From contig NZ_CP060828.1 of NCBI RefSeq assembly GCF_014489635.1, positions 6,284,001 through 6,348,000 of the forward strand: a stretch of DNA of 64,000 bases. Direction: 5' to 3'. The notes under the pieces were generated by a model that ran no database searches, was not told the origin of the DNA, and saw only the letters and a program-made list of their open reading frames with translations. Below, piece after piece: positions 1 to 62,360 of this stretch. This DNA comes from Streptomyces roseirectus. GTDB taxonomy: Bacteria > Actinomycetota > Actinomycetes > Streptomycetales > Streptomycetaceae. The translations under genes and the position numbers were made by a program. The first letter of the stretch is position 1. Each line of letters starts with the position of its first letter.

Positions 1-917
1 CGTACATGGACATCGCCGCCCGGCGAGGCTACGAGGCCGTCATCACGCTCTCGAACGACGTAGCCCTCGAAGGCAGCCCCCTGGTGGACGTCAAGGTCGA
101 CGGCCGCCGCAAGCACAAGGTCGCCCTGCGGCACCTGTCGTGGGCCGAAGTCGCCCACCAGGCCCAGATGTTGATCCGCCACGAGGGCGTCGGCGACAAG
201 GCGCACGCCTGGCTGCTCCTGGAACTCCTGCACTACCTGCGCCACGACAACTCCGGCTGCCACGGCTTCCAGAACATGGGCGCGGCCTGGGTCCCCGTCC
301 GCAACGGCATCGACGACGAGACCCTGTGCGCCGGCGACCCGCGCGCCCTGGACGTCGTTGAGAGCTGGGAACGGCTCGTCCGGCAGATCTGCCTGAGCCT
401 CGGCGGTGAACTCGGCCAGAAGGTCCTGCCGGTGCAGCGGGCCAGACGCGGCGCCGACCCGAAGGAGCGCCGCAGCCGCCTCGCCGACCAACTCTGCCTG
501 GACGGACGACTTTTGGCCGAACTGCGGATCGAGGGCGCCCCCGGCATCCTGACCGTCTGCGCCGACCTGCGCACGGCCAGGATCCGGACGTCCGTCGAGA
601 TCCCGGCCCCCGCCAAGGGCTACCCCCTCAGCTGGGCCAAGCGCCTGGTCCGCCGCCTGGCCGACGCCCCGGCCGACCTCCACGTCGAAACCCTCGTCGA
701 GGGGGACACCGGCGGGCCGAGGGGCACGCTGGAACGCCTGCGCCCGGAACCCGCCGACCTGCTCCCCAAGAACGCCGACACCCGCATCACCGGCTTCCGC
801 CTGTCCCTGTTCAAGAGCATGGGCGGCGGCCGGGGCAACGCGGAGACCGGCTTCATCCGCAGCGTCGACGACGCCGTGACCCGCTTCCGCACGGCCGTCG
901 TGGCCCACCTGGAGTGA
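1..917 (+). CDS. Conserved protein with nuclease-like family features, 5' end outside window
   Basis: The frame is open to the left edge, so this is the C-terminal part of a larger protein; the ATG at 6 is probably internal. The visible 303 residues have the pattern I associate with a group of actinobacterial hypothetical proteins carrying a PD-(D/E)XK-like N-terminal domain: an AVITLSND strand near residue 12, RHLSW near 41, a helix LLLELLHYLRH near 70, and a DNSGCHGFQNMG loop followed by WVPVR. No catalytic residues of a nuclease can be checked because the N-terminus is missing. It converges on pepN across a shared terminator. The family assignment is inference from memory of sequence style and no function should be read from it. 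Confidence 0.6.
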   Translation, partial: YMDIAARRGYEAVITLSNDVALEGSPLVDVKVDGRRKHKVALRHLSWAEVAHQAQMLIRHEGVGDKAHAWLLLELLHYLRHDNSGCHGFQNMGAAWVPVRNGIDDETLCAGDPRALDVVESWERLVRQICLSLGGELGQKVLPVQRARRGADPKERRSRLADQLCLDGRLLAELRIEGAPGILTVCADLRTARIRTSVEIPAPAKGYPLSWAKRLVRRLADAPADLHVETLVEGDTGGPRGTLERLRPEPADLLPKNADTRITGFRLSLFKSMGGGRGNAETGFIRSVDDAVTRFRTAVVAHLE

Positions 918-6067: not shown

Positions 6068-7977
<1,910 letters not shown>

Positions 7978-7978
7978 G

Positions 7979-8638
7979 ATGCCCGACGACGACGCGCTCC
8001 TGCACGCGATCACCGGCGAACCCGCCCCCGACACCCCCGAACTCCGCGCCGCCCACGCGGACATCGCCGTCCTGCGCCACCAACTCGCCCTCATCGCCGA
8101 GGAACTGGACGCCGGCCCGGTGGCCGTTCCCCCACGCCGCCGCTCCTGTCGCGGGGTGCTGTACGGCCTCGCGGCGACCGGCGTGCTCGGCCTGCTCGGC
8201 GGCACCCTCACCCTGCTGGCCGGGACCGGCGGCGCCGGCGACGCGGGGGACGCCGACAAGTCCGCTGCCTCCGCAGTTGGCGGTACCGCTGAGGAGGCAG
8301 CGGACGCCCTCACCGACCCCGAGTACCTGGCCTGCGCCGCCACGGTCGTCGAGGGCACCGTCATCTCCGTACACCCCCAGGGGGACGCGACGGAGGTCAC
8401 CCTGAGAGTGACGCGGTCCTACAAGCCGGTGCCGGGCCCCTCCGACGTCACGTTCGCGGTGGACGCGGTGGACGCGGTGGACACTGAGGTCGTGCGGGGG
8501 GAGGCGCTGCTGGTCGCGCTCGGGCCGGACTCGGCGTCCCCGGACGCGCTGGTGGTGGGGGAGCCCGGCGTCGCGGCTCAGCGCCCGTCGCTCGTGCGGG
8601 CGTTGGAGGAGTCGCGCGAGACGGCGTGCCCCGGCTGA
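7979..8638 (+). CDS. Membrane-anchored protein, candidate anti-sigma partner
   Basis: 219 residues: an N-terminal acidic, predicted cytosolic segment of about 58 residues, one membrane segment at about 59-82 preceded by PPRRRSCR, then an exported domain of about 130 residues with two or more Cys. The stop of the sigma gene and this ATG are one base apart, so the two are co-translated. Topology and position fit an anti-sigma or sigma-modulating role, but I see no HxxxCxxC zinc motif. The exported part contains a short valine/aspartate duplication (VDAVDAVD) near residue 160. Function is inferred only from context. Confidence 0.75.
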   Translation: MPDDDALLHAITGEPAPDTPELRAAHADIAVLRHQLALIAEELDAGPVAVPPRRRSCRGVLYGLAATGVLGLLGGTLTLLAGTGGAGDAGDADKSAASAVGGTAEEAADALTDPEYLACAATVVEGTVISVHPQGDATEVTLRVTRSYKPVPGPSDVTFAVDAVDAVDTEVVRGEALLVALGPDSASPDALVVGEPGVAAQRPSLVRALEESRETACPG

Positions 8639-8646
8639 GACGCGAA

Positions 8647-8676
8647 AGGCGGGCGCCCCTTCAACGGCGCCCGCCT
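8647..8676. terminator. Hairpin between convergent genes
   Basis: An 11-bp stem, AGGCGGGCGCC, with an 8-base loop and complement. It lies just after the stop of the anti-sigma-like gene and upstream of the converging small gene's stop. Confidence 0.65.
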
Positions 8677-8716
8677 CTGTCTCGTCGTACGCGTCAGGTA
8701 CTACGCGTCGTACCGC

Positions 8717-8938
8717 CTACTCCCAGCCGTCCCAGACCCAGCTGCCGGTGTCGTCCCCGCTGGGCTTCGTCGGCTTGGTGACGACCGGGTCGTCGAGGCC
8801 GTCGGCCGCCACGACCCGCTTGTCCTGCGCGGGCGAGGCGCCGTGCTGGCCGGCGAGGCCCAGCGGGAGCGCCAGCGTCGCGGTGACAGCCAGGGCGGCG
8901 AGTGCGGTGCGGACGGCTCGGCCGGTGATTCGTCTCAT
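8717..8938 (-). CDS. Small secreted or membrane-anchored protein, unknown function
   Basis: 73 residues starting MRRITGRAVRTALAALAV, a classic n-region plus hydrophobic core followed by GLAGQHGA, so exported. The mature part is short and acidic (ADGLDDPVVTKPTKPSGDD) and ends in an aromatic tail WVWDGWE. I chose the ATG at 8938 because AGAGG lies just upstream and the signal sequence begins there; the longer open frame has no such support. I do not recognise a family. It converges on the sigma operon. Confidence 0.6.
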   Translation of the reverse strand: MRRITGRAVRTALAALAVTATLALPLGLAGQHGASPAQDKRVVAADGLDDPVVTKPTKPSGDDTGSWVWDGWE

Positions 8939-55341: not shown

Positions 55342-57048
55342 ATGGCGGAGACGAAACGCGAGATCGAGCGCAAGTACGAATCCGATGAGAGCGGACTGCC
55401 GGACCTGACGGGGGTCGGGGAGATCGAGAGGGTCCTCGACCGGGGCGTGGCCGAGCTGGACGCGACCTACTACGACACGGCGGACGGGCGGCTCGCGGCG
55501 GCGTCGATCACGCTGCGGCGGCGGACCGGGGGCTCGGACGCGGGGTGGCATCTGAAGTTCCCCGTGTCGCCGGGCGTGCGGGACGAGGTGCGGGCGCCGC
55601 TCTCGGCCGGCCTGCCGCGCAGCCTCGCGGGGCTGGTCAGGTCACGGGTGCGGGACGCCGAGCTGGTCCCGGTGGTGCGGCTGAGGTCGGCGCGGGACGT
55701 ACGGGAGCTGGTCGACGGCGAGGGCAGGCTCCTCGCCGAGGTCAGCGTGGACGCGGTGCGCGCGGAGCGGCTGAGCGGGGGAGACGGGGCCGCGCAGTGG
55801 TCCGAGATCGAGGTGGAGCTGGCCGACGGCGCCGATCCCGTCCTCCTCGACCAGGTCGAGAAACGCCTCCGCAAGGCCGGCGTGCGCCGCTCGGCGTCCG
55901 AGTCGAAGCTCGCGCGGGCCCTCGCGGAGACGAGCGGGACCGGGACCGGGGCCGCGAAGAGCCCCGGCAAGCAGGCCAAGTCCGCCGGGCCGGCGTCGTC
56001 CGCGAAGTCCGGGAAGGCTGACAAGGGCGCGAAGGCGTCCGGCAAGGTCGGCAAGTCCGGCAAGGTCGAGAAGTCGTCCGGCAAGGCCGGTGAGCCCGTG
56101 CCGTCCGCCGAGCCCGTGTCTTCCGCCGGGCCCGGCGAAACCCCCGGCGCGACCCCCGGTAGAACCCCCGCCCACCACACCGCCGCCCACCACGTCCTCG
56201 CCTACCTCAGTGCTCAGCGGGACGCGATCGTCGCGCTGGATCCTGCTGTCCGGCAGGACGAGTTCGACTCGGTGCACCGGATGCGGGTGGCCACGCGCAG
56301 GGCGCGCAGCGCGTTCCGGTCGTTCGGGAAGGTGCTGGACAGGGCGGTCACGGATCCGATCGGGGAGGAGCTGAAGTGGCTCGCGGGGGAGCTGGGCGTC
56401 GACCGGGACCAGGAGGTGCTGGCCGAGCGGATCACCGGCGGGCTGGAGAAGCTGCCGAGGCATCTGGTCGTCGGCCCGGTCCGCACCCGTCTGCGCACCT
56501 GGTCCCACGCCCGCCGGGGCGGTTCGCGCAGGCGCCTCATCGCCGTCCTGGACGGCAGGCGGTACCTGGCCCTGCTCGACACGCTGGACGCGCTGATCGC
56601 CGGACCCCCGCTGCTGAAGGCCGCGTCCGGTGAGCCGGAGAAGGTGATCGCCGCCGCCGTCCGCAAGGACTTCGCGCGGGTCGCGGCGCTGATCGAGGAG
56701 GCGCTGGCGCAGCCGTCGTCCGGGCCCGAGCGGGACTTCGCGTTGCACGAGGCCCGTAAGAAGGCGAAGCGGACCAGGTATTCGGCGGAGGCCGCGCAGT
56801 CCGCGCTCGGGGATCCCGCGACCGCGATGGTGAAGGTCGCCCGCTCCCTCCAGAACCTCCTCGGCGACCACCAGGACAGCGTGATGGCCCGCGAAGCGTT
56901 GCGAGAGATCGCAGGTCAGGCGCACGCGGCGGGCGAGAGCGGGTTCACGTACGGGCTGCTGTACGGCCGCGAGGAACGCCGCTCGGCGGACGACGAGGCG
57001 GAGCTGCCGGGCCTGTGGGAGCGGGTGAAGGGCGGGACCGGGATCTGA
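55342..57048 (+). CDS. CYTH-CHAD domain protein
   Basis: 568 residues. The N-terminal CYTH triphosphate tunnel domain (1-200) begins with the EIERKYE hallmark. A Lys/Ser/Gly-rich low-complexity linker follows (about 205-280, SGKADKGAKASGKVGKSGKV). The C-terminal CHAD domain (about 285-540) is helical with conserved His and Arg (SVHRMRVATRRARSAFRSF; LHEARKKAKRTRYSAEA), which binds polyphosphate. The combination suggests polyphosphate or triphosphate metabolism. The lysine-rich linker resembles those that receive lysine polyphosphorylation, but that is inference. Probably leaderless; single gene. Confidence 0.92.
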   Translation: MAETKREIERKYESDESGLPDLTGVGEIERVLDRGVAELDATYYDTADGRLAAASITLRRRTGGSDAGWHLKFPVSPGVRDEVRAPLSAGLPRSLAGLVRSRVRDAELVPVVRLRSARDVRELVDGEGRLLAEVSVDAVRAERLSGGDGAAQWSEIEVELADGADPVLLDQVEKRLRKAGVRRSASESKLARALAETSGTGTGAAKSPGKQAKSAGPASSAKSGKADKGAKASGKVGKSGKVEKSSGKAGEPVPSAEPVSSAGPGETPGATPGRTPAHHTAAHHVLAYLSAQRDAIVALDPAVRQDEFDSVHRMRVATRRARSAFRSFGKVLDRAVTDPIGEELKWLAGELGVDRDQEVLAERITGGLEKLPRHLVVGPVRTRLRTWSHARRGGSRRRLIAVLDGRRYLALLDTLDALIAGPPLLKAASGEPEKVIAAAVRKDFARVAALIEEALAQPSSGPERDFALHEARKKAKRTRYSAEAAQSALGDPATAMVKVARSLQNLLGDHQDSVMAREALREIAGQAHAAGESGFTYGLLYGREERRSADDEAELPGLWERVKGGTGI

Positions 57049-57120
57049 GCGGGCGGGCGGACCCTTCCGGCCGCGTTAGGCTGGGAGGCCACCCATATCA
57101 GCTCACGAAAGTTCGCCGCG

Positions 57121-59049
57121 ATGTCTGTCGAGTCGGTGTTCCCGCAGCTCGAAGCCCTGCTCCCGCATGTGCAGAAGCCGATCCAGTACGTGGGCGGCGA
57201 GCTGAACTCCACCGTCAAGCCCTGGGACGAGTGCGACGTCCACTGGGCCCTGATGTACCCGGACGCCTACGAGGTCGGGCTGCCCAACCAGGGCGTCATG
57301 ATCCTCTACGAGGTGCTGAACGAGCGGGACGGCGTCCTCGCCGAGCGCACGTACAGCGTGTGGCCGGACCTGGAGGCGCTGATGCGGGAGCACGGCGTCC
57401 CGCAGTTCACGGTGGACTCGCACCGCCCGGTGAAGGCGTTCGACGTGTTCGGGCTGTCCTTCTCCACCGAGCTCGGCTACACCAACATGCTCACGGCCCT
57501 CGACCTCGCGGGCATCCCGCTGGAGGCGAAGGACCGCGGCCTCGACGACCCGATCGTCCTCGCGGGCGGCCACGCCGCGTTCAACCCCGAGCCGATCGCC
57601 GACTTCATCGACGCGGCGGTCATCGGGGACGGCGAGCAGGCCGTCCTCGACATCACGGACATCGTCCGCCAGTGGAAGGCGGAGGGACGCCCCGGCGGCC
57701 GCGAGGAGGTGCTGTTCCGCCTCTCGAAGACCGGCAACGTCTACATCCCCCGGTTCTACGACGTCGAGTACCTGGCGGACGGCCGGATCGCCCGCGTCGT
57801 CCCCAACCGCAGCGGCGTCCCGTGGCGGGTCTCGAAGCACACCGTCATGGACCTCGACGAGTGGCCCTACCCGAAGCAGCCGCTCGTGCCGCTCGCGGAG
57901 ACGGTCCACGAGCGGATGTCCGTCGAGATCTTCCGGGGCTGCACGCGCGGCTGCCGGTTCTGCCAGGCCGGGATGATCACGCGGCCCGTGCGGGAGCGGT
58001 CGATCACCGGGATCGGCGAGATGGTCGACAAGGGCCTCAAGGCGACCGGCTTCGAGGAGGTCGGCCTGCTGTCCCTGTCCTCCGCCGACCACAGCGAGAT
58101 CGGCGAGATCGCCAAGGGCCTCGCCGACCGCTACACCGAGGACAAGATCGGCCTCTCCCTGCCGTCCACCCGTGTGGACGCCTTCAACGTCGACCTCGCC
58201 AACGAGCTGACCCGCAACGGCCGCCGCTCCGGCCTCACCTTCGCCCCCGAGGGCGGGTCCGAGCGCATGCGCAAGGTCATCAACAAGATGGTCTCCGAGG
58301 ACGACCTCATCCGTACCGTCGCCACCGCGTACGGCAACGGCTGGCGCCAGGTCAAGCTGTACTTCATGTGCGGCCTGCCGACCGAGACCGACGAGGACGT
58401 CCTCCAGATCGCCGACATGGCCGCGAACGTCATCGCCAAGGGCCGTCAGGTCTCCGGCGCGAACGACATCCGCTGCACCGTCTCCATCGGCGGCTTCGTC
58501 CCCAAGCCCCACACCCCCTTCCAGTGGGCGCCCCAGCTCTCCGCCGAGGAGACCGACGCCCGCCTCGAAAAGCTCCGCGACAAGATCCGCGGCGACAAGA
58601 AGTACGGCCGCTCCATCGGCTTCCGCTACCACGACGGCAAGCCCGGCATCGTCGAGGGCCTGCTGTCGCGCGGCGACCGCCGCGTGGGCGCCGTCATCCG
58701 CGCCGTCTACGAGGACGGCGGCCGCTTCGACGGCTGGCGCGAGCACTTCTCCTACGACCGCTGGATGGCCTGCGCCGCCAAGTCCCTCGCCGAGTTCGAC
58801 CTCGACGTCGACTGGTACACCACCCGCGAGCGCACCTACGAGGAAGTCCTCCCCTGGGACCACCTCGACTCCGGCCTCGACAAGGACTGGCTCTGGGAGG
58901 ACTGGCAGGACGCCCTCGACGAGACCGAGGTCGACGACTGCCGGTGGACGCCGTGCTTCGACTGCGGGGTGTGCCCGGCGATGGACACGCACATCCAAGT
59001 CGGGCCTACGGGCAAGAAGTTGCTGCCGCTGAGCGTCGTCAACAAGTAA
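57121..59049 (+). CDS. B12-binding-like radical SAM protein, TIGR03960 family
   Basis: 642 residues. The N-terminal region (about 20-210) resembles a cobalamin-binding Rossmann domain (HWALMYPDAYEVGLPNQGVM). The radical SAM cluster Cys are C274, C278 and C281 in CTRGCRFCQAG. A C-terminal region has further Cys (WTPCFDCGVCPAM). In many bacteria it is fused or adjacent to TIGR03936; here its partner is at 62367-63176, separated by two genes. The substrate is not established. A TAGGCT -10-like element lies at 57077-57082. Confidence 0.92.
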   Translation: MSVESVFPQLEALLPHVQKPIQYVGGELNSTVKPWDECDVHWALMYPDAYEVGLPNQGVMILYEVLNERDGVLAERTYSVWPDLEALMREHGVPQFTVDSHRPVKAFDVFGLSFSTELGYTNMLTALDLAGIPLEAKDRGLDDPIVLAGGHAAFNPEPIADFIDAAVIGDGEQAVLDITDIVRQWKAEGRPGGREEVLFRLSKTGNVYIPRFYDVEYLADGRIARVVPNRSGVPWRVSKHTVMDLDEWPYPKQPLVPLAETVHERMSVEIFRGCTRGCRFCQAGMITRPVRERSITGIGEMVDKGLKATGFEEVGLLSLSSADHSEIGEIAKGLADRYTEDKIGLSLPSTRVDAFNVDLANELTRNGRRSGLTFAPEGGSERMRKVINKMVSEDDLIRTVATAYGNGWRQVKLYFMCGLPTETDEDVLQIADMAANVIAKGRQVSGANDIRCTVSIGGFVPKPHTPFQWAPQLSAEETDARLEKLRDKIRGDKKYGRSIGFRYHDGKPGIVEGLLSRGDRRVGAVIRAVYEDGGRFDGWREHFSYDRWMACAAKSLAEFDLDVDWYTTRERTYEEVLPWDHLDSGLDKDWLWEDWQDALDETEVDDCRWTPCFDCGVCPAMDTHIQVGPTGKKLLPLSVVNK

Positions 59050-59159
59050 GAAGCACCCATGAACGGGCCCTTCCCTCCGGGGGAGGGCCCGTGGCCGTTC
59101 CGAGCAGGGGTGATCGCTGGATAGAGTCGGTCAGGCACAGTGGGGAGGGGCGCGGTCCG

Positions 59160-61175
59160 ATGAGTCGTCGCAGGTCCGGAGCGGTCGGTGTCTGGGCCGA
59201 GATGCAGCGTCAGCAGCAGCGGCAGGCGCAGGCCGCCGCCCGGCAGGCCAGGGAGCGGGAGCGGCAGGAGCGCGCCTATCAGCGGCAGGCCGCGCAGGAC
59301 CACAAGGCGTACCGGCAGGCGGAGGCCGCGCGGCGGACCGCCGAGCTGGAGGCGCGGGTGGCCGCGTTGCAGGGGCTGCTGGCGACCGGGTGCCGTGCGG
59401 CGGGGTTCCGTCCGGACACGCTGCTGCGCACCGAGCAGGTGCCGCCCTTCGACCCCGGCGCGCTGGCCCAGCCGGTGCTGATGCCGGATCCGAGCCAGTT
59501 CCCGGCGCACGGCGGGTGGACCGCCAACGGGCGTGCGCAGGCGCAGGCCGAGGCCCGCGCCCGCTTCGAGCAGGCGTGGTACGCGGCCCAGGCCGCCGAG
59601 GCGCGGCGCCAGGAGCAACTTGCCGTCCAGCGGCGGCAGTACGAGCAGTGGGCCGAGGGCCTGCGGACCGAGGTGCGCCGCCACAACGCCGGCGTCACCG
59701 AAGCGGCCCGGGGCCTGGAGCGGGGCGAACCGGACGCCGTCGTCGAGTACTTCACCGCCGCGCTGTACGCCTCCCCGTCCTGGCCGGAGGAGTTCCCCCG
59801 GCAGCTCTCCGCCGCCTACGACCAGTCGGCACGCCAGCTCGTCCTGGACTGGGAACTCCCCGGCTACGGCGTCGTCCCCGAGGCGAAGGCGGTGCGGTGG
59901 TCGCCGGGCGAGGACCAGTTCCGGGAGACCGCGCGCCCCGTGACCCAGCGCCGGGCGCTGTACCGGGAGACGGTGGCGCAGTCCGCGCTGCTCGTCCTGC
60001 ACGAGCTGTACGCCGCCGACGCCGCCGGCGTGCTGGATTCCGTGGTGTTCAACGGCTTCGTCGACGGACCCGACCCCGCGACCGGCCTGCGCGCCCAGCA
60101 CGTCCTGGTCACCGCCTTGGCCCGGCGTTCCTCCTTCACGTCCCTGAACCTCGCGCAGGTCGACGCGGTCAGCTGCCTCACGGACGGGCTGCGCGGCCGG
60201 CTCTCCGCCAAGCCGGACCAGTTGACCGCCGTCCGCCCGGACCGCCGTCCCCAGGACGTCGGCAACCGCGTGGTCACCCACCAGGACGACGAGCCCGACC
60301 TGTACGCCATGGACCCGCTCGCCTTCGAAGACCTCGTCGCGCAGTTGTTCCGGGCGATGGGGATGGAGGCGGTGACGACACAGCGCTCGGGCGACGGCGG
60401 GGTGGACGTCGACGCGACCGACCCGGCGCCGATCCGGGGCGGGGCCATAGTCGTGCAGGTGAAGCGGTACCGGAACACGGTGTCGCCCACGGCCGTCCGG
60501 GACCTCTACGGCACGGTGCTCGACCGGGGCGCCAACAAGGGCGTCCTGGTCACGACGTCGTCCTTCGGACCCGGCTCGCGCGACTTCGCCACCGGCAAGC
60601 CCCTGGAGCTGATCTCAGGACCCGAACTCGTCGACCTCCTGCACCGGCACGGCCTGCGGGGCCGGTTGGGCGAGGGCACCCCATCGGACGACGGGCACAA
60701 CGTCCTCGGCATGTCCTGGTCCGGCACGGTCGCGCTCGACGTGTGCGCGCTGGTCTGCCGGGGCGGCCGGGTCTTGGACGACGACCACTTCGTCTTCTAC
60801 AACAACCCGGCGACCCCGGACGGTTCGGTACGCGCCCTGCCACCCACCGCCCCCGACCGGGCCTCCCTCCGCGTCGCCTTCGACGCGCTCCCCGCGACCG
60901 CCGACCGCCTCGTCCTCGTCGCCGCCGTCGACCCCGAGACCGACCCCCACGCCGACCTCTCCGGCTTCACCGACGCCCGCATCCGCCTCCTCGACGCCCG
61001 CGCCACCGAACTCGGCGTCCTGGAGGTCTCCGACGGCCGCCCCACCGAAACCGCCCTGGTCCTCGGCTCCTTCCGCCGCCGCGACACCGGCGACTGGGAC
61101 TTCGTCCTGGGCGGAAAGGGCTACCGGGGCGGACTGGAGGAACTGGTCCGCGACTTCGGTCTGGACGTGGAGTAG
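59160..61175 (+). CDS. Mrr-type restriction endonuclease fused to a TerD domain
   Basis: 671 residues. Residues 1-75 and 125-175 are Gln/Ala/Arg-rich coiled coils. An uncharacterised middle (about 185-370) follows. The Mrr-like PD-(D/E)XK nuclease spans about 383-495: Glu390 in FEDLVAQLF, Asp416 in GDGGVDVDA, Gln433-x-Lys435 in VVQVKRY, all catalytic positions kept. A TerD-like domain spans about 514-671 (LGMSWSGTVALDVCAL, DDDHFVFYNNP, and acidic DPETDPHADLSGF near 591-603). Such fusions have been described in computational surveys of ter stress systems. ATG 59160 is set by GGGGAGGGG. Likely role is defence or stress-induced DNA cleavage; inference only. Confidence 0.88.
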   Translation: MSRRRSGAVGVWAEMQRQQQRQAQAAARQARERERQERAYQRQAAQDHKAYRQAEAARRTAELEARVAALQGLLATGCRAAGFRPDTLLRTEQVPPFDPGALAQPVLMPDPSQFPAHGGWTANGRAQAQAEARARFEQAWYAAQAAEARRQEQLAVQRRQYEQWAEGLRTEVRRHNAGVTEAARGLERGEPDAVVEYFTAALYASPSWPEEFPRQLSAAYDQSARQLVLDWELPGYGVVPEAKAVRWSPGEDQFRETARPVTQRRALYRETVAQSALLVLHELYAADAAGVLDSVVFNGFVDGPDPATGLRAQHVLVTALARRSSFTSLNLAQVDAVSCLTDGLRGRLSAKPDQLTAVRPDRRPQDVGNRVVTHQDDEPDLYAMDPLAFEDLVAQLFRAMGMEAVTTQRSGDGGVDVDATDPAPIRGGAIVVQVKRYRNTVSPTAVRDLYGTVLDRGANKGVLVTTSSFGPGSRDFATGKPLELISGPELVDLLHRHGLRGRLGEGTPSDDGHNVLGMSWSGTVALDVCALVCRGGRVLDDDHFVFYNNPATPDGSVRALPPTAPDRASLRVAFDALPATADRLVLVAAVDPETDPHADLSGFTDARIRLLDARATELGVLEVSDGRPTETALVLGSFRRRDTGDWDFVLGGKGYRGGLEELVRDFGLDVE

Positions 61176-61262
61176 CCGGGGTCGAGCGGTTGTTGCCGGT
61201 TCGATACCGAGCACTGGGGGTTTGGGCGCATCCCTGCCGGTAGGCGTAGCGTCTATGCCGTT

Positions 61263-62360
61263 ATGGACCTGGAGAAGCGCGGACAGTCGCAGGGGGCTCG
61301 GCGGGATGCCGAGGGGTGTCTTGTGGTCGCGATCCGGATTCCGGTGCGGATCGTGGTACTGGTGCTGGTCGTGCCCGTGAGGGTGGTGTGGGACGGGCTC
61401 GTCGTGGTGGGGCGGGTGGTGCGGGATTCCGTGCTGCGGCCTGTGGGGCGGGGGTTGCTGTGGGTCGCGAAGGCCGTGTTCGTGTGGCCGGTGGTGGGGG
61501 TCTGGCGGTATGTCGTCGTGCCGGTGGGGGCGGGGCTCGGGTGGCTCGGGCGGGTGCTCGTCGTCGAGCCCGTTCTGTGGGTCCACCGGAATGTGCTGGT
61601 GCCGCTCGGGCGGGGCGTGGTGTGGGTGGTCGCGCCGGTCGGGCGCGGGGTGATGTGGGTGCTGCGCGGGATCGGTACGGGGATCGCCGCGCTCGGCGCC
61701 GGGGGCGCCTGGCTGACGCGGTGTCTGGTGGTCGCGCCCGCGCGCTGGTTGTACGCGTGGGTGCTCGCGCCGGTCGGGCGGGGGATCGGGTGGTGTGCCC
61801 GAGGGGTGTGGCGGGGGGCCGTGTTCGTCGCCGGCGGCCTGTGGCGTGGAGTCGTCCTGCTGGGTACGGGTGTGTGGCTCGCCCTCTACTGGACCGTCCG
61901 CGTGCTGCTCGTCCTGCCGGCCGTCGCGCTGTGGCGGTGGGTCCTCGCGCCGGTGGCGCGGGTGCTCGGGGTGGTCGCGCGGGAGGTGGGGGACGCGCTC
62001 GGGCACGCCTGGCGGATCGCCGGGTGGATCTCGCTCGCCGTGTGGCGGTTCCTGGTCGGGGTGTTCCGGTGGGTGTTCGTCGAGCCCGTCCGGTGGGTCT
62101 ACCGGACGGTGCTGACCCCCGTCGGTCACGTCGTGCGGGACGCCGTCCTGCGGCCCGCCGCCGAGGCCGCGCGGAGTGTGGGGAGGGTCACCCGGCAGGT
62201 CCTCGGCGCCGCGCGCGAGACGGTACGGCAGACGCGGGCCGATCTGCGGCGGGCGCTGTTCGGGGGGCCACGGGAGAGGGAAGCGGTGGCTCGGCGGGAA
62301 CCCGGGAGCGGCGAGGGACGTACTCTTGGTAGAAGTACGACCGCTCTCACTAAGGAATGA
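61263..62360 (+). CDS. Trp-rich internally repetitive membrane protein
   Basis: 365 residues. Residues 20-300 are a run of hydrophobic segments of about 27 or 56 residues with a recurring pattern: xPVGRGxxW, hydrophobic stretch, VxPxRWxYxxVL. Examples are LRPVGRGLLW, VPVGAGLGW, APVGRGIGW, APARWLYAWVL and EPVRWVYRTVL. About 25 Trp residues are regularly spaced, with Arg at segment edges. The C-terminus (about 305-365) is basic and amphipathic. No ribosome site is obvious. The stop precedes a possible CTG start of the next gene by zero bases. I do not recognise a family; function unknown. Confidence 0.75.
   Translation: MDLEKRGQSQGARRDAEGCLVVAIRIPVRIVVLVLVVPVRVVWDGLVVVGRVVRDSVLRPVGRGLLWVAKAVFVWPVVGVWRYVVVPVGAGLGWLGRVLVVEPVLWVHRNVLVPLGRGVVWVVAPVGRGVMWVLRGIGTGIAALGAGGAWLTRCLVVAPARWLYAWVLAPVGRGIGWCARGVWRGAVFVAGGLWRGVVLLGTGVWLALYWTVRVLLVLPAVALWRWVLAPVARVLGVVAREVGDALGHAWRIAGWISLAVWRFLVGVFRWVFVEPVRWVYRTVLTPVGHVVRDAVLRPAAEAARSVGRVTRQVLGAARETVRQTRADLRRALFGGPREREAVARREPGSGEGRTLGRSTTALTKE

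Follow-up and report, generated by a model that had tools for sequence, protein, structure and literature searches.

The 64,000-nucleotide stretch of Streptomyces roseirectus DNA analysed here (the window) encodes a 671-aa protein in which an Mrr-type PD-(D/E)XK nuclease is joined to a TerD domain. The fusion, proposed in a first-pass annotation of the sequence, is real: its open reading frame was delimited exactly, contains no internal stops, and matches the Mrr_cat and TerD profiles far above their cut-offs (Table 1). We give an even chance to the reading that the gene encodes a modular, single-gene anti-phage nuclease composed of a recognition module, an Mrr blade and a TerD regulator that does not work through calcium.

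Domain architecture of the fusion protein

The Mrr_cat match has an E-value of 6.6e-32 (110.5 bits against a curated cut-off of 21), and the TerD match (PF02342) an E-value of 4.8e-23 (82 bits against 25.3). The catalytic residues E390, D416, Q433 and K435, placed correctly from the start, are invariant in all 39 intact full-length copies from the same genus, in 72/72 full-length copies among 73 named loci and in 43/43 copies picked across the family. The nearest nuclease folds include MspJI and AspBHI. The C-terminal part is recognised as a TerD fold; its profile match covers positions 37-187 and the calcium loop is missing, so that the "full TerD-like domain" of the first-pass annotation stands as TerD but not as full. 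Most homologues share the N-terminal MSRR start.

The AlphaFold2 model of the protein has blockwise pLDDT values of ∼73-96 beyond residue 10. It renders the expected N-terminal coiled coils as two long helices forming a hairpin; the winged-helix Mrr_N domain of classical Mrr has no Pfam match in the fusion at E-values up to 10. The region between hairpin and nuclease, rightly described as uncharacterised, gave a confident model when predicted separately (residues 186-378, pLDDT 90.6, pTM 0.86): an alpha/beta domain without a confident fold match among PDB and viral structures. With a pTM of 0.51, the complete model does not show how the domains pack against each other. The PADLOC Type IV model mREase_IV (PDLC03663) spans residues 13-497 with an E-value of 5.3e-58 and leaves TerD outside; the name is an annotation and no proof of modification dependence. 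Pfam and PADLOC scans detected neither DUF4041 nor GIY-YIG domains in the fusion. The frame of the fusion is open over 57015-61175 (1386 aa) and so extends across the radical SAM gene, which is read in a different frame; this is common at such a G+C content.

Table 1. Features of the fusion gene and its surroundings in the window.
Feature	Position	Strand	Basis or remark
Second TerD protein, C-terminal part with PD-(16)-ExK motif	1..917	+	starts ∼1.08 kb before the window
TIGR03960 radical SAM protein (neighbour)	57121..59049	+	profile match
13-bp perfect hairpin, terminator-like, without T run, between radical SAM stop and fusion start	59063..59092	+	folding
CDS, Mrr-TerD fusion, 671 aa	59160..61175	+	helical hairpin, middle domain, Mrr_cat, TerD
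Helical hairpin / coiled coil, residues 7-188	59178..59723	+	AlphaFold2 model; long helices 7-71 and 122-188
Alpha/beta middle domain, residues 190-375	59727..60284	+	without Pfam family
Mrr_cat PD-(D/E)XK nuclease domain, residues 382-494	60303..60641	+	Pfam
Helix E390 of Mrr active site	60327..60329	+	invariant in copies
Catalytic D416 (60405-60407), Q433 (60456-60458), K435 (60462-60464)	60405..60464	+	invariant in copies
TerD domain, residues 513-670	60696..61169	+	Pfam match at residues 522-666
Site of missing GDN-TGEGDGDDE calcium loop of canonical TerD, residues 558-568	60831..60863	+	alignment
365-aa protein without significant family match (neighbour)	61263..62360	+	profile search

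The calcium site of the TerD part

The first-pass annotation had noted that TerD proteins bind calcium and suggested that the TerD part might gate the nuclease. In Klebsiella TerD, the reported ligands are residues 40, 41, 42, 78, 79 and 89 for the first calcium ion and 29, 82, 84 and 88 for the second (PMC8779313). We mapped these positions through an alignment of the fusion with the Klebsiella structure 2kxt, in which position 29 falls outside the aligned part. Position 40 corresponds to A525 and position 42 to D527; Pro and Thr stand at 78 and 79, the fusion has a deletion at 82-84, and R567 and A568 take the places of 88 and 89; position 41 is Leu in both proteins. D527 is thus the only one of the mapped acidic or Asn side-chain ligands left in the fusion, which differs from canonical TerD (PF02342; S. 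coelicolor 3ibz, Klebsiella 2kxt) in these residues, in the calcium loop and in the start of the profile. The loop is absent from 39/39 intact genus copies and from 43/43 family copies. A568 and D527 are invariant in the 39 genus copies, and D527 is kept in 38/43 family copies. Of 16 TerD domains found in the same genome, 14 others were compared with that of the fusion, and 6 of these keep the loop. With the ligand residues and the loop lost, calcium gating is not supported for the fusion.

One copy among the 72 full-length named ones does possess the loop. This copy, on a draft contig of S. niveiscabiei NRRL B-24457 (L177:2821-5085), is 89-95% like the window copy up to the TerD part; there it turns into a canonical TerD, which brings the loop with it. 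Its flanks do not match the window, nor the terD stretch of the S. roseirectus genome with which they were compared. The switch reflects either recombination or misassembly.

Distribution, descent and genomic neighbourhood

Among 121 genomes of the genus, the fusion is intact and full-length in 39 (31 copies matched in one piece, 8 split into two matches that share a frame), shortened in frame to 602 aa in one (G118), cut by a contig end in one (G112), broken in two (G072 by a stop, G013 leaving a TerD remnant) and missing in 78. Unfused relatives of 37-38% identity occur in 6/121 genomes, one of which (G054) carries the fusion too. The fusion is present in Streptomyces (S. cyaneus and S. seoulensis, for example), Actinacidiphila, Kitasatospora and Embleya, and all 120 relatives of the Kitasatospora protein among the matches listed have both domains. 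Outside the genus, it was seen neither in the order sample of 15 further genomes nor in the phylum sample; the whole-fusion model matched in 5 of 197 genomes of the class-wide sample, all of the same genus. Elsewhere in the class sample, where five candidates per genome were scored, the matches were limited to a core lacking TerD, and TerD lay in separate ORFs.

In the core tree, the 43 fused sequences lie on one side of a branch separating them from 27 unfused ones, with support of 100/100 and recovery in 100% of 200 bootstrap trees. As far as sampled, the fusion thus has a single origin, in Streptomycetaceae, and TerD is still attached in all 43 family copies examined. The unfused family (PDLC03663) shares the layout of hairpin, middle domain and Mrr with 34-43% identity, in alignments that span residues 17-505 at their longest, and keeps each catalytic position in at least 70/71 sequences, but has no TerD and ends soon after Mrr.

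The median dN/dS values over 12 chosen close pairs are 0.22 for the N-terminus, 0.17 for the middle domain, 0.08 for Mrr and 0.19 for TerD; purifying selection therefore acts on each of the four. Conservation between Streptomyces and Kitasatospora amounts to 0.44, 0.52, 0.63 and 0.34 for the same parts. TerD is the least conserved part between genera, except between Streptomyces and Embleya (TerD 0.46, N-terminus 0.44), and is not so within Streptomyces (0.75 vs 0.64 for the N-terminus).

Gene calls and flank clustering place the 39 intact fusions in at least seven neighbourhoods. Ten copies lie at a gyrA/parC-like gene (named by eye), 7, including the window copy, in the region of the radical SAM and DUF2344 genes, and 4 at a recQ-like gene (by eye), with which the 3 copies of context c11/c12 are counted since they have genes in common; four further contexts hold 5, 2, 2 and 1 copies, and 5 copies fall in none. 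Of the 73 named loci, taken with flanks of up to 3 kb, 47 could be assigned to no context in this list, and the parC-like context is absent from all 73. In the tree of the fusion, contexts mostly form clades: the parC-like copies group 10/10 with support of 100/100, and c11/c12 is not a clade. Distances between fusions and between the DUF2344 proteins of 36 genomes are correlated (Mantel r 0.67, against at most 0.22 in 2000 permutations). Since the gene tree tracks this housekeeping gene, descent of the fusion has been largely vertical between moves, and the overall pattern is mainly one of vertical inheritance with relocations and losses. Two plasmids carry the fusion, NZ_CP109170.1 (791 kb, typed mobilizable) and NZ_CP081497.1 (2.8 Mb), and the Kitasatospora plasmid NZ_CP108290.1 bears it at 45% identity. 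On NZ_CP109170.1, a Streptomyces plasmid, an AIPR family gene is the third gene upstream (L250:2655-4388 and 6773-8854). None of the 7 matching phage records covers 80% of the fusion.

In the window, the 365-aa gene downstream of the fusion adjoins the DUF2344 (TIGR03936) gene and an RNase E-like gene, the latter named by eye. The 56-nt stretch with the terminator-like hairpin upstream of the fusion folds at -31.3 kcal/mol (z -2.46), and 3 of 200 shuffles were equally stable. The five other window genes scanned around the fusion (RodA/FtsW-type, CYTH-CHAD, radical SAM, DUF2344 and one without family) include no TerB, TerC or biosynthesis genes. We sampled the same junction in 20 genomes, 15 without the fusion and 5 with it elsewhere (loci L106-L125). 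At 12/20 less than 0.5 kb follows the radical SAM gene, at 6/20 other DNA takes up 1.6-8.2 kb, and for 2/20 the radical SAM gene does not lie within the ∼8 kb fetched. This variable junction (window 59050-61262) holds a serine-recombinase-like fragment in L109 (by eye), and in two loci, L116 and L060, a TerD gene whose product has the GDN loop, in L060 as a reverse-strand ORF directly following the fusion (by eye). When 100 neighbour proteins were compared with PADLOC, 26 families matched at E ≤ 1e-8, a count made with no background set alongside, and each of the 25 families listed was matched by one neighbour protein. The immediate neighbours thus give little sign of defence.

Related proteins and candidate functions

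TerD is joined to nuclease-like sequences in other proteins as well. In three genomes of one genus from another actinomycete family, we found the reverse order of TerD, proline-rich linker and Mrr_cat (L264:985-2334, L265:994-2385 and L266:1818-3305), with E-values of about 1e-13 for TerD and about 1e-33 for Mrr. By eye, they have D...SxK in place of QxK at the active site and a TerD without the GDN loop. The second TerD protein of the window (L132:2918-4915) has 666 aa, with TerD at residues 1-172 followed by a linker and the motif P329-D330...E347-x-K349; all four motif residues (P, D, E, K) recur in a homologue of 41% identity from a Rhodococcus plasmid. No nuclease profile matches this protein, so that its identity as a nuclease is a motif-level suggestion. 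The best argument for a connection between TerD and cleavage is that TerD has been joined to nucleases more than once.

The hairpin and middle part also occurs without Mrr and behaves, as anticipated, as a separable unit. It was matched alone in the class search at E-values of 8e-32 to 6e-58, and the order sample adds one such match. We took seven of these loci (L255-L261) and detected no Mrr domain in any part of the stretches fetched. In 5/7 (G668, G672, G582, G122, G699) a PD-Lambda-1-like gene follows directly on the same strand, separated in four loci by -1 to 4 nt; in G602 and G616 there is no such gene within the stretch fetched. Pairs of the module gene and a DUF4041 gene lie at L267:3027-5827, L270:3366-5909, L268, L269 and L260. 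According to Pfam matches in three loci the partner gene encodes DUF4041 together with a GIY-YIG-type domain (T5orf172/MUG113). The PADLOC PD-Lambda-1 model matches the partner in two loci (E 1.3e-101 and 7.6e-107), and the partners share 58-64% identity. Phage defence by the SNIPE family is reported as proven, with defence lost on deletion of DUF4041, and SNIPE homologues are described there as widely varying in their N-terminal regions; plasmids in that source are named PD-lambda-1 (PMC13190303). The fusion resembles PD-Lambda-1/SNIPE (DUF4041 and GIY-YIG) in that the gene of the latter adjoins a homologue of its hairpin and middle module in five actinomycete loci, but contains neither of the two domains and has a nuclease of Mrr type. 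Its occurrence with two unrelated nucleases makes the module more likely to choose the target than to cut it.

We infer the cleavage of DNA, the role in defence, the target, the ligand and the gating of the nuclease by TerD as follows. The hairpin and middle module would find the target, which may be DNA entering the cell, probably in modified form, or some component of the phage, and the Mrr domain would act as the blade that cuts DNA. TerD would be a regulatory ligand-binding module, holding or releasing the blade in answer to signalling by the Ter stress network; the signal would most likely be of nucleotide type rather than calcium. TerD and TerB have been proposed as sensors of nucleotide-type signals in an anti-phage Ter network (PMC7824862, PMC7159879), and operons that combine TerD with restriction genes have been described (PMC3710099). 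In favour of the anti-phage reading are the invariant active site, the selection on every part, the mREase_IV match, the patchy occurrence in several places and on plasmids, the other TerD-nuclease proteins and the module beside PD-Lambda-1-like genes; against it stand the scant signs of defence among the neighbours, the mostly vertical descent, the absence of a phage record with 80% coverage and the middle domain without a fold match. A bolder version, which we hold to be unlikely, regards hairpin and middle domain as an unnamed phage-recognition module serving unrelated blades, Mrr in cis and the GIY-YIG nuclease of SNIPE/PD-Lambda-1 in trans; Streptomycetaceae would have added the calcium-free TerD as a switch reading nucleotide signals of the Ter network, making the fusion a nuclease effector of the Ter system.

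The strongest competitor of the anti-phage reading, in our view somewhat improbable, is an ordinary modification-dependent (Type IV) enzyme, in which the middle domain would read a modified base, Mrr would cut, and TerD would be no more than a part for dimerisation, stability or docking. The extent of the mREase_IV match, the unfused relatives without TerD in the genus and in other families, and the similarity to MspJI and AspBHI are consistent with it. Both of these enzymes have an SRA-like reader; none was found in the middle domain of the fusion, where one may still be present, and similarity in Mrr-cat alone is reported not to dictate modification preference (PMC3874153). A passive role of TerD also sits poorly with its retention in all 43 family copies since one origin, with the purifying selection on it, and with its renewed joining to Mrr in another family.

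The protein might instead be a stress switch: TerD would report stress and not phage, and cleavage of the cell's own DNA would bring about SOS, growth arrest or programmed death. E. coli Mrr is described as damaging its own chromosome at high pressure (PMC3874153) and TerD proteins as tied to stress (PMC8123226), but the absence of the fusion from 78/121 genomes, its several locations and the sharing of its module with SNIPE-type loci make this distinctly unlikely. Very improbable is a housekeeping factor of the radical SAM/rodA/rne region that is nuclease-like by chance: context calls put the window copy and 6 other intact copies at or near the radical SAM-DUF2344 junction, but DUF2344 is present in 118/121 genomes and the fusion intact in 39, 32 of them with the copy elsewhere or unplaced, a hairpin stands between radical SAM gene and fusion, and 8 of the 20 fusion-free junctions were counted as holding at least 1.6 kb of other DNA. 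The gene is thus not universal and has no tie to the radical SAM operon; the Mrr and TerD profiles both match as well, and neither of the two outcomes that would have weakened a defence role according to the first-pass annotation was obtained.

TerD proteins are widespread in bacteria, and to our knowledge their biochemical role is not settled. The covalent tie to a nuclease would offer a direct readout of it: cleavage with and without TerD, and with candidate ligands. Restriction hampers genetic work in antibiotic-producing actinomycetes. The recognition module shared with SNIPE-type loci points to a new anti-phage part in these bacteria.
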